Shown: piece after piece, positions 50,515 to 53,388 of the stretch
Layout: the number at the start of each line of letters is the position of its first letter
How positions within the stretch are numbered: position 1 is the first letter of the stretch
Assembly: GCA_900316935.1 (NCBI GenBank)
Contig: ONEW01000006.1
Span: forward strand, 1-64,000
DNA from: an uncultured Selenomonadales bacterium
GTDB lineage: Bacteria; Bacillota; Negativicutes; Acidaminococcales; Acidaminococcaceae
Direction: 5' to 3'
DNA: 64,000 bases
The notes under the pieces: generated by a model
The model's database searches: none
The model's input: only the letters and a program-made list of their open reading frames with translations
Told to the model about the DNA's origin: nothing
Position numbers and translations under genes: made by a program

Positions 50515-52659
50515 TCAGTCAGTCCCCTGTGCCGCCGCCACCGTCTTGCGGTACGGTGCAGCCGGGCGCAAGATGAAGTACAGGGCCACGGCAACCAGGA
50601 CACAGGCAATGCCCTGCATAATGCCGAACGGCGTGCCATAGAAGGCCCAGCCGCCCAGGTTGTAGACCACGAAGGCCAGACCATAACCGATCATGCACTG
50701 GAAGCCGATGGCCAGGGCCGCCCATTTCTTGTCGCCCATTTCACGGGCCGTCGTAGCCATAGCGACCAGGCAGGGCGGGTCAAACAGGTTCAGGACCATG
50801 TAGGTGAAAGCCGTGAGCGGGGTGAACATGGCGGCAATACCTTTGAACACGGCTTCTTCGTTTTCCGGATCGGCGCCGGCCAGGATCCCCAGCGTACCGA
50901 CGGCCTGTTCCTTCGCCATGAAGGCGGAAATGACGGCGACGGTGTTCTTCCAGTCACCCAGGCCAAGGGGCGAGAAGATCCATGCGAAGGTGTTGCCGAC
51001 GCCGGCCAGCATGGACTGTTCGACATCCTCCACCATCTCCAGGCTCGTGTTGAAGGCCTGCAGGAACCAAATGATGACGCAGACCGTGAAGATGATCGTG
51101 CCGGCCTTGACGATGAAGCCGCGGGCACGTTCCCACATGTGGATCAGGACACCTTTGAAGGAAGGAATATGGTAGGCCGGCAGTTCCATAACGAAGGGAG
51201 CCGGTTCGCCGGCAAAGAATTTCGTCTTTTTCAGGGCGATGCCGCCGAGAATGATGATGGCGATGCCCAGGAAGTACATGGCCGGTGCCACGAAGACCGA
51301 ATCAGGGAAGAAGACCGACGTCACCATGCCGATGATTTCCGTCTTGGCAGAGCACGGAATGAACGTGGCCAGCATAATCGTCATACGGCGGTCGCGCTGT
51401 TCCTCAATCGTGCGGGCCGCCATGATGGCCGGCACACCGCAGCCCGTACCGATCAGTACGGGGATGAAGGATTTGCCGGACAGGCCGAATTTGCGGAAAA
51501 TGCGGTCCATGATGAAGGCGACGCGCGCCATGTAGCCCGAGTCTTCCAGCAGGGACATGAAGAAGAAGATCAAGAGGATCTGCGGCACGAAACCCAGCAC
51601 CGTGCCGACGCCGCCGATGATGCCATCGACGATGAGGCTGCTCAGCCAGTCCGGCGCCGCGATGCTTTCCAGGAACCCGTTGGCCGCGTCCGTCACGATT
51701 TCGCCGAAGAACACGTCGTTCGTCCAGTCCGTGGCCCAGCCGCCGACGGTCGTCACGGAAATGTAATACATGACCGTCATGACGGCCACGAAAATCGGCA
51801 GGGCCAGAAAGCGGTTCGTCACGATACGGTCGATTTTGTCCGACGTAGTAAGCGCATGTTTCGCCTCTTTTTTGTGAACCGCTTCTGCAACCAGTTTTTC
51901 AATGTATTCATACCGCTGATTGATGATGATGCTTTCCGCGTCATCGTCCATCTCCTGCTCGCAATCCTGGATGTGCATGTCCAGATGCCGCAAAAGTTCC
52001 GGCGGAATGGCCATACCATCCGTTATGTCCTTATCCCGTTCGAAGACCTTGACGCTGTACCAGCGCAGGTTGCGCGGCTCGACCAGGTCCGCGATGGACT
52101 CCTCGATGTGGGCCAGCGTATGTTCCACGCTGCCGGTGAACACATGAGGCGGCTCTTTCGGAGGCTTGCGGGCCTGGGCAATGCGCAGGGCCGCTTCGGC
52201 TGCCGCAAGGCAGCCCTCCCCCTTCAGGGCGCTGATTTTGTAGATCGGGCACCCCAAGGCTGCCGACAGTTTGCTCAAGTCTATTTCGTCTCCCCAGGCG
52301 TCGACCAAATCCATCATGTTGATGGCCAGGACGACCGGAATCCCGACTTCAATGAGCTGTGTCGTCAAATACAGGTTCCGTTCGATGTTGGTGCCGTCGA
52401 TGATGTTCAAAATGACATCCGGTTGTTCCTGTACCAGATACCGGCGGGAAACTTTTTCCTCCAGCGTGTATGGCGACAGTGAATAGATACCGGGCAGGTC
52501 CTGGATGATGACATCCTTATGGCCCTTCAGCAGCCCGTCCTTCTTCTCCACCGTGACACCGGGCCAGTTGCCTACATACTGGGTACTGCCCGTCAATTCA
52601 TTGAACAACGTGGTTTTCCCGCAATTGGGATTGCCAGCCAGCGCAATCTTGATTTCCAT
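50515..52659 (-). CDS. feoB: Ferrous iron transporter FeoB
   Basis: A 714-residue ferrous iron importer. The N-terminal G domain has GNPNCGKTT (G1), DLPGIYSLSPYTLEE (G3 and switch) and NMMDLVD (G4). A helical GDI domain (about 170-270) is followed by a membrane domain with two Gate motifs (IGTGCGVPAIMAART and PCLVAMATTAREMG). It is encoded downstream of two feoA genes. AAAGGATAGG precedes the ATG. Confidence 0.96.
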   Translation of the reverse strand: MEIKIALAGNPNCGKTTLFNELTGSTQYVGNWPGVTVEKKDGLLKGHKDVIIQDLPGIYSLSPYTLEEKVSRRYLVQEQPDVILNIIDGTNIERNLYLTTQLIEVGIPVVLAINMMDLVDAWGDEIDLSKLSAALGCPIYKISALKGEGCLAAAEAALRIAQARKPPKEPPHVFTGSVEHTLAHIEESIADLVEPRNLRWYSVKVFERDKDITDGMAIPPELLRHLDMHIQDCEQEMDDDAESIIINQRYEYIEKLVAEAVHKKEAKHALTTSDKIDRIVTNRFLALPIFVAVMTVMYYISVTTVGGWATDWTNDVFFGEIVTDAANGFLESIAAPDWLSSLIVDGIIGGVGTVLGFVPQILLIFFFMSLLEDSGYMARVAFIMDRIFRKFGLSGKSFIPVLIGTGCGVPAIMAARTIEEQRDRRMTIMLATFIPCSAKTEIIGMVTSVFFPDSVFVAPAMYFLGIAIIILGGIALKKTKFFAGEPAPFVMELPAYHIPSFKGVLIHMWERARGFIVKAGTIIFTVCVIIWFLQAFNTSLEMVEDVEQSMLAGVGNTFAWIFSPLGLGDWKNTVAVISAFMAKEQAVGTLGILAGADPENEEAVFKGIAAMFTPLTAFTYMVLNLFDPPCLVAMATTAREMGDKKWAALAIGFQCMIGYGLAFVVYNLGGWAFYGTPFGIMQGIACVLVAVALYFILRPAAPYRKTVAAAQGTD

Positions 52660-52740: not shown

Positions 52741-52965
52741 TTACAGCGGTTCCACTTCCACCGTCGCTGCTTCATTTTTCCGCACGGAGAGGTCATAGCC
52801 CCGCACATTCAGTTCCATGGGGTCGCCCAGGGGAGCGATTTTCACTACCTTGATTTCCGTTCCCTTCGTAATGCCCATATCCATGATGCGCCGTTTCAAC
52901 GCACCGCTCCCGGTCAGCCGGGTCACTTTGCAGAGGCTGCCGATTGCCACTTCATTCAGTGTCAT
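52741..52965 (-). CDS. feoA: FeoA family protein (second feoA, adjacent to feoB)
   Basis: A 74-residue SH3-like FeoA protein: GSLCKVTRLTGSGALKRRIMDMGITKGTEIKVV and DPMELNVRGYDLSVRKNEA. FeoA is thought to bind cytosolic FeoB and tune its activity. It lies 81 nt before feoB and follows another feoA. The two FeoA proteins are clearly different in sequence. Confidence 0.92.
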   Translation of the reverse strand: MTLNEVAIGSLCKVTRLTGSGALKRRIMDMGITKGTEIKVVKIAPLGDPMELNVRGYDLSVRKNEAATVEVEPL

Positions 52966-53018: not shown

Positions 53019-53231
53019 TCAGTACAGGATACGGCGGGCCATCGCCTCGCCGATGCCGACGCGGCTTCCCCGGACATTGAGGATCAGGCTGCCCGCCAAA
53101 TGGCTGACGACCGTAATCCGGGCGTCCACCGTAAATCCCATTTCGGCCAGATGCTGCCGCACCTGGTCATTCCCGGTGATTTTGCGGATGGTGACCGTAT
53201 CACCTACCTCCGCCATGACCAAAGGTACCAA
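53019..53231 (-). CDS. feoA: FeoA family protein (first gene of feo operon)
   Basis: A 70-residue FeoA-like SH3 protein: MAEVGDTVTIRKITGNDQVRQHLAEMGF and SLILNVRGSRVGIGEAMARRIL. A TTG start at 53231 is chosen because GGAGGTG lies 6-9 nt upstream and VPLVMAEVGDT is the usual family N terminus; a start at the internal ATG (53216) is possible. It is the first gene below the feo promoter and the palindrome array. Confidence 0.88.
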   Translation of the reverse strand: MVPLVMAEVGDTVTIRKITGNDQVRQHLAEMGFTVDARITVVSHLAGSLILNVRGSRVGIGEAMARRILY

Positions 53232-53260
53232 GGATTTCACCTCCCCCGGCATACAAACCA

Positions 53261-53353
53261 TTAGCATTTGCTAACTCAATGTTTTAAAAAATAGGGTTAG
53301 CTTTCTCTAACCCAAAGTCTTTAAAGAACCGGTTAGTATTACCTAACCGGTTC
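53261..53353 (-). promoter_or_regulatory. three TTAG-N6-CTAA palindromes in the feo leader
   Basis: Palindromes are centred at 53267.5, 53303.5 and 53339.5, exactly 36 bp apart. All share TTAG-N6-CTAA; arms extend to 7 bp in the second (53294-53313) and 11 bp in the third (53326-53353). The third covers the predicted start of transcription. The second, read on the minus strand, is followed by TATTTTTT and could also fold as an attenuator. Confidence 0.7.
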
Positions 53354-53359
53354 GTTTTT

Positions 53360-53388
53360 AATGTACCACCCTGTATAAAGTTTGTCAA
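53360..53388 (-). promoter_or_regulatory. feo operon promoter
   Basis: On the minus strand TTGACA (53383-53388) lies 17 bp from TACATT (53360-53365) with an extended TGG. Transcription would start near 53353, at the edge of the first palindrome encountered. Confidence 0.72.

Follow-up and report, generated by a model that had tools for sequence, protein, structure and literature searches.

Palindromes in the feo leader of an uncultured Acidaminococcaceae bacterium as probable operators of a DtxR-family iron repressor with a possible role in transcription termination

Introduction

The leader of the feo operon in this genome carries three palindromes with the core TTAG-N6-CTAA, which raises the question of what reads them and why they are placed in a row behind the promoter. 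A preliminary description based on the letters of the DNA proposed cooperative binding of a metal-responsive repressor, saw no agreement with either the Fur box or the DtxR box, and offered an RNA attenuator as the alternative. We addressed these proposals by comparison with feo loci and other targets in related and more distant bacteria. The term window denotes the whole 64-kb stretch of DNA that was analyzed.

Results

A position search of the window returned three copies of TTAG-N6-CTAA, all in the feo leader (Table 1), with a spacing of exactly 36 bp and arms of 6, 7 and 11 bp, as had been described. By chance, 0.04 copies would be expected, and none of 100 shuffles reached three. In the whole genome the motif occurs 11 times, including these three, and is without excess, since the backwards control has 18 sites; genome-wide over-representation was thus rejected, and the signal lies in the position of the sites rather than in their number. 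The gene order on the minus strand is mscL (53870–53433), promoter, three palindromes, ribosome-binding site and feoA-feoA-feoB. The promoter is sigma-70-like, its two hexamers being separated by 17 nt, and from the position of the -10 hexamer transcription is expected to start near 53353, which would place all three palindromes at or downstream of the start. The ATG of the listed feoA open reading frame (from 53267) falls inside palindrome 1; the start of the first feoA is probably the TTG at 53231 behind GGAGGTG, both of which are kept in two relatives.

Table 1. Features of the feo leader and operon in the window
Feature	Position	Strand	Basis
-35 hexamer of the feo promoter, TTGACA	53383..53388	-	Sequence search
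-10 hexamer, TACATT, with TG in front	53360..53365	-	Kept in G008
Palindrome 3, predicted first operator (core 53333-53346; about +1 to +28; 11-bp RNA stem)	53326..53353	-	Position of promoter-proximal sites (class P) in relatives
T-rich stretch TTCTTT, ending 12 nt before palindrome 2	53323..53328	-	Sequence
Palindrome 2, predicted second operator (core 53297-53310; 7-bp terminator-like stem)	53294..53313	-	Ordinary terminator instead in G009
T-run TATTTTTT, ending 11 nt before palindrome 1	53286..53293	-	Sequence
Palindrome 1, TTAGCAAATGCTAA, predicted third operator, nearest the ribosome-binding site	53261..53274	-	Sequence
Ribosome-binding site of the first feoA, GGAGGTG	53238..53244	-	Read from the sequence; kept in two relatives
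feoA (first), probable TTG start	53019..53231	-	Pfam FeoA (5.3e-16); start conserved
feoA (second)	52741..52965	-	Pfam FeoA (1.4e-22)
feoB	50515..52659	-	NCBIfam TIGR00437, over cut-off

The sequence confirms the T-rich run that had been reported for the transcribed strand behind palindrome 2. Palindrome 2 forms seven pairs in a GC-containing stem that is directly followed by TATTTTTT, i.e., the arrangement of an intrinsic terminator, which alone is weak (-10.2 kcal/mol) and of a kind expected by chance in the region (mean 1.7 sites). The TTCTTT before palindrome 2 is a weak U-tract. The leader as a whole folds strongly (-44.4 kcal/mol; z = -5.4) and has no match to any curated RNA family of Rfam at gathering score.

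Sites in feo leaders share the consensus RGTTAG-N6-CTAACY. Its core, TTAG-N6-CTAA, corresponds to the half of the 19-bp DtxR/IdeR box that takes a single dimer (PMC10317159). The geometry and spacing of that half recur exactly at all three sites of the window, so that the earlier statement that the pattern does not match the DtxR box was mistaken. Relative to TTAGG-N4-CCTAA, palindrome 3 differs at one position and palindromes 1 and 2 at two each. The full box for two dimers (TTAGGTTAGSCTAACCTAA) is not present in the leader, where its best match has four mismatches; neither is the 7-1-7 Fur box (TGATAATNATTATCA), with five mismatches at best. An 18-bp MntR-like array, built with the weak midway palindromes TTTTAAAA and TCTTTAAAGA, was rejected, as 28 related arrays lack a middle palindrome.

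The absence of the motif before feo in relatives had been named as evidence against the proposal, and the search found the motif to be present. In a first retrieval of 30 FeoB loci (29 from relatives and that of the window), the motif lies upstream in 29, and the remaining locus is at a contig end. From a further 80 named loci, fetched by FeoB similarity alone and including Ruminiclostridium, Clostridium, Gemmiger, Oscillibacter and Lachnospiraceae, 67 contain it within 1.2 kb upstream (147 sites, versus one in the backwards control). In many Clostridia and Negativicutes, feo operons are preceded by such sites.

Other sites in the same genome are located just upstream of genes for a TonB-dependent receptor (hutW downstream), a flavodoxin, ahpC, a P-type ATPase and an SLH-domain porin; in the first four, a -10-like TATACT or TATAAT precedes TTAG by about 9–13 nt. 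Upstream of the porin gene (L008 3535-3614, G000:C40) there are two sites 66 bp apart, one of them 9 nt behind the T-run of the terminator of the preceding gene and the next behind a TTGACA promoter. In Clostridia, the targets of GTTAG-N6-CTAAC, as read from sequence, comprise ECF and ABC transporters behind TetR genes, a siderophore-type binding protein, ZIP transporters, flavodoxins and dtxR genes. One flavodoxin leader (L288) has a first site after the promoter, then a hairpin with T-run, and a second site before the gene. A NifH-like gene (nitrogenase iron protein; L315) has two sites upstream. An enolase-like gene follows the motif in two Clostridia (L275, L296), which is unexpected for an iron repressor.

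The genome encodes a single DtxR-family protein of 126 aa (G000:C29:1394-1774, minus strand), with DNA-binding and metal-binding/dimerization domains that both exceed the Pfam cut-off. Both E. coli MntR and DtxR can be aligned with it; in the stretch Ala-Cys-Arg-x-Glu-His it agrees with DtxR, whereas E. coli MntR reads Ala-Glu-Gly-Met-Glu-His there. This protein is the likely reader of the palindromes, and from the shared residues and the nature of the targets we infer that iron would be its effector. Directly downstream of its gene is a gene resembling a periplasmic CbiK-type chelatase (L010 159-1316).

In five genomes (G017, G020, G026, G033, G039) dtxR adjoins feoB with the motif in between, and at many loci in Clostridia feo has a DtxR-family gene upstream that is oriented away from it; counts of dtxR near feo may be low, the profile having been built from only 4 of 30 DtxR sequences. 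Twelve members of the class without a DtxR hit lack the motif in the feo leader that was fetched, and many of them have good Fur boxes, one of which is perfect. Within the family, four genomes with dtxR (G022, G023, G030, G035) have no motif at the first feoB fetched, two of the four having it at a second feoB. In five genomes further removed, whose DtxR/MntR-like protein is also more distant, Fur boxes take the place of the motif or both are missing. Conversely, G034 (73% complete) has the motif and no dtxR hit. It looks like the regulator at feo has changed within the class, judging by a co-occurrence of dtxR and motif that is uncorrected for relatedness. Among the feo leaders of class members without a close dtxR (L180–L195), good Fur boxes replace the TTAG motif, and L191 has a perfect one, TGATAATGATTATCA, at position 704. 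In one genome (G053), 22 TTAGC-N4-GCTAA sites (versus none in the control) are found, yet there is neither a DtxR-family hit nor a motif in the feo leader.

Two classes of site, newly observed here, can be distinguished: promoter-proximal sites with -35 and -10 elements, and downstream sites with a T-run 8–12 nt upstream, often behind a hairpin. TTGACA is at the right distance from 65% of the first leader sites versus 7% in shuffles, and from 6% of feoB-proximal sites, the same as in shuffles (6%), so that the latter were rejected as promoter-operators. A T-run ends 8–12 nt upstream of 41 of the 51 feoB-proximal sites versus 9 of the 81 first sites, and for later leader sites the corresponding figure is 32/63, against 9/63 on the opposite strand. 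The T profile before the sites is sharp, with 75–86% T at -16 to -12 and 2% at -9. Many T-runs follow a hairpin (mean folding z -1.3) and some feoB-proximal ones are without a good hairpin; approximately half of the later leader sites, and likewise of the Clostridia arrays at 32–36 bp, have no T-run by the rule used. The layout of a roadblock terminator, with the site about 9–13 nt behind a U-tract that follows a hairpin, is present as a layout only. Many Clostridia (L091–L170) have an intercistronic element some 30–60 nt upstream of feoB, in which hairpin, T-run, 9–11 nt, GTTAG-N6-CTAAC and ribosome-binding site follow each other with no -35. Between feoA and feoB of the window, this element is absent.

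Both classes were sought outside feo with GTTAG-N6-CTAAC in two sets of eight Clostridia genomes, known feo regions being mostly left out. Upstream of genes, a -35 accompanied 30 of 77 sites (about 12% at random upstream positions) and a T-run at 8–13 nt 25 of 77 (about 13% at random). Because the first eight genomes had been chosen partly with T-run results in view, the second eight were drawn at random; in these, the T-run excess outside feo is modest, weaker but present (12/42 versus 14%; p = 0.01).

Adjacent sites, in pairs at 24–60 bp, are mostly 32–36 bp apart (28/38). Within the genus, the 36/36 spacing is kept in G008 and other members have 45, 55–56, 63–64 or 72 bp, while the coding-strand T-run ends about 9–12 nt before the next TTAG and is more constant than the spacing of sites. 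Since the spacing varies and this distance holds, cooperative phasing, as first proposed, is unlikely to be what chiefly sets the 36-bp spacing. In the close relative G009, a GC-rich hairpin, GAGGCCCCTGTGGGCCTG, stands in place of palindrome 2, with eight T behind it and then, after 10 nt, the last site; the distance from first to last site is 72, as between palindromes 3 and 1 of the window. Thus, G009 retains terminator, T-run and last site despite the loss of palindrome 2. Palindromes with a second site after them have longer complementary arms (mean 6.6, versus 5.2 for others), and against partner shuffles z is 4.1 when a site follows and 1.8 for leader sites not followed. The stem of palindrome 3 is maintained in G008 through G-U pairs. 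In seven genus members a further stem pairs part of site 1 with a later stretch just before the T-run (63 of 63 cells pair), and its covariation in these leaders is not significant (176 of 500 shuffles reach the score).

Discussion

The palindromes are very probably operators of a DtxR-family iron repressor. The original suggestion of a metal-responsive repressor acting downstream of the promoter is well supported by conservation of the motif before feo, by its presence at other iron-linked genes and by its tracking of the DtxR-family gene. We propose that, with iron, the repressor on palindrome 3 would cover the transcription start and block initiation. Palindromes 2 and 1 would fall within the transcribed region, each preceded by a hairpin and then a T-rich stretch, which ends 12 and 11 nt before them, respectively; the repressor bound there would halt an RNA polymerase that had already started, its active center in the U-tract, whereupon the hairpin would terminate transcription. 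When iron is scarce, the repressor would leave, initiation would resume, and the hairpins would be read through at least in part. To this combined explanation, i.e., single-dimer operators, an initiation block and roadblock-assisted termination, we assign a probability of roughly 0.6, because the operators, which make up most of it, would hold even if the termination step did not. That the downstream sites act by roadblock-assisted intrinsic termination has, by itself, about an even chance.

The likeness to IdeR and DtxR comprises TTAG...CTAA, the half-site geometry, one dimer per site, iron-uptake targets and, in repressed genes, a box that overlaps the start or the -10 (PMC10317159). As differences, the present sites are single-dimer sites, often arrayed in transcribed DNA, and their fifth base is mostly C, T or A rather than G. 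In addition, the 126-aa protein leaves no room for the SH3-like domain and has an arginine in place of Gln43 of DtxR. The 6-6-6 arrays of SloR at sloABC of Streptococcus mutans (PMC12096823) likewise have three tandem palindromes with 6-bp spacers before a metal-uptake operon, read by a DtxR-family protein; the SREs, however, are of AATTAA type, 4 bp apart, and overlap the -35/-10 (PMC12096823), unlike the sites described here, which are 36 bp apart from center to center, downstream of the start and have T-runs between them. At mneP of Bacillus subtilis, dimers of the small DtxR-family protein MntR also bind in an array, but there the 18-bp sites are 1 bp apart and serve activation (PMC11275975).

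The proposed termination step has its nearest layout elsewhere. In RNA polymerase I termination, a roadblock halts the enzyme within a T-rich run, 15 bp before the roadblock site, and the upstream RNA hairpin then releases the transcript; terminators with Reb1, Nsi1 or TTF1 share with the feo leader the succession of hairpin, T-rich run and roadblock site about 15 bp on (PMC12366685). As the T-runs span about -18 to -10 relative to TTAG, which is a comparable offset, the DtxR-family protein is proposed to hold the polymerase in the U-tract. The eukaryotic system is constitutive, while the bacterial one would be iron-dependent, and we refer to a likeness of layout without claiming homology. Among bacterial roadblocks, CodY, CcpA and PurR also stop elongating polymerase from a site downstream of the start (PMC10310618, PMC4132739), termination of the stalled polymerase being credited to Mfd or Rho (PMC4132739); in contrast, the literature searched did not describe, for them, any coupling to an intrinsic terminator in a set position. 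The open-license literature also gave no report, in bacteria, of a repressor whose site is set behind an intrinsic terminator to bring about termination.

Two of the other explanations concern what the palindromes are. A Fur-family protein as reader is very improbable and ranks last among the explanations considered; it would agree with the two Fur-family genes in the genome and with ahpC among the targets, a gene regulated by PerR elsewhere, but the five mismatches of the best 7-1-7 match in the leader, and the Fur boxes without the TTAG motif at feo in class members lacking DtxR, argue against it. Nearly as improbable is an attenuator or protective 5' structure in which the palindromes matter as RNA hairpins only. 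The strong fold of the leader, the terminator-like palindrome 2 and the stem of palindrome 3 held by G-U pairs would all be accounted for, and yet distant genera keep the letters TTAG and CTAA even as arms and loops differ, a constancy that pairing alone would not demand. Moreover, the motif is flexible in position, precedes unrelated genes and tracks dtxR, and there is no Rfam match. The attenuator of the preliminary description nevertheless probably holds as well, coupled to the operators rather than as an alternative to them.

A more serious contender, which we still consider unlikely, accepts plain DtxR operators that would block initiation and, by simple obstruction, elongation, with dimers cooperating along the array as in SloR or MntR and T-runs that are merely uncoupled AT-rich or terminator DNA. 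The predominance of pairs at 32–36 bp is in its favor, as is the cooperative binding of tandem sites by SloR and B. subtilis MntR (PMC12096823, PMC11275975). Known arrays, however, have periods of 22 and 19 bp rather than 36, the spacing varies in the genus where the T-run distance does not, and the T-runs are strand-specific and sharply placed. We thus prefer operators coupled to termination.

A wider proposal is more tentative, and we hold it with slightly more doubt than belief: that Clostridia and Negativicutes possess metal-gated intrinsic terminators, at feo leaders and feoA-feoB junctions, in which hairpin and U-tract are followed, at a fixed distance, by a bound DtxR-family repressor that would hold the polymerase in the U-tract and make termination iron-dependent, as a bacterial counterpart of RNA polymerase I termination. 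For much of the anaerobic gut bacteria, where the literature found names no iron operator of feo, the motif provides a candidate. It also bears on the question, left open for IdeR, of whether other species have single-dimer half-sites and, if so, to what effect (PMC10317159). If the coupling to terminators is true, one repressor would control termination as well as initiation.
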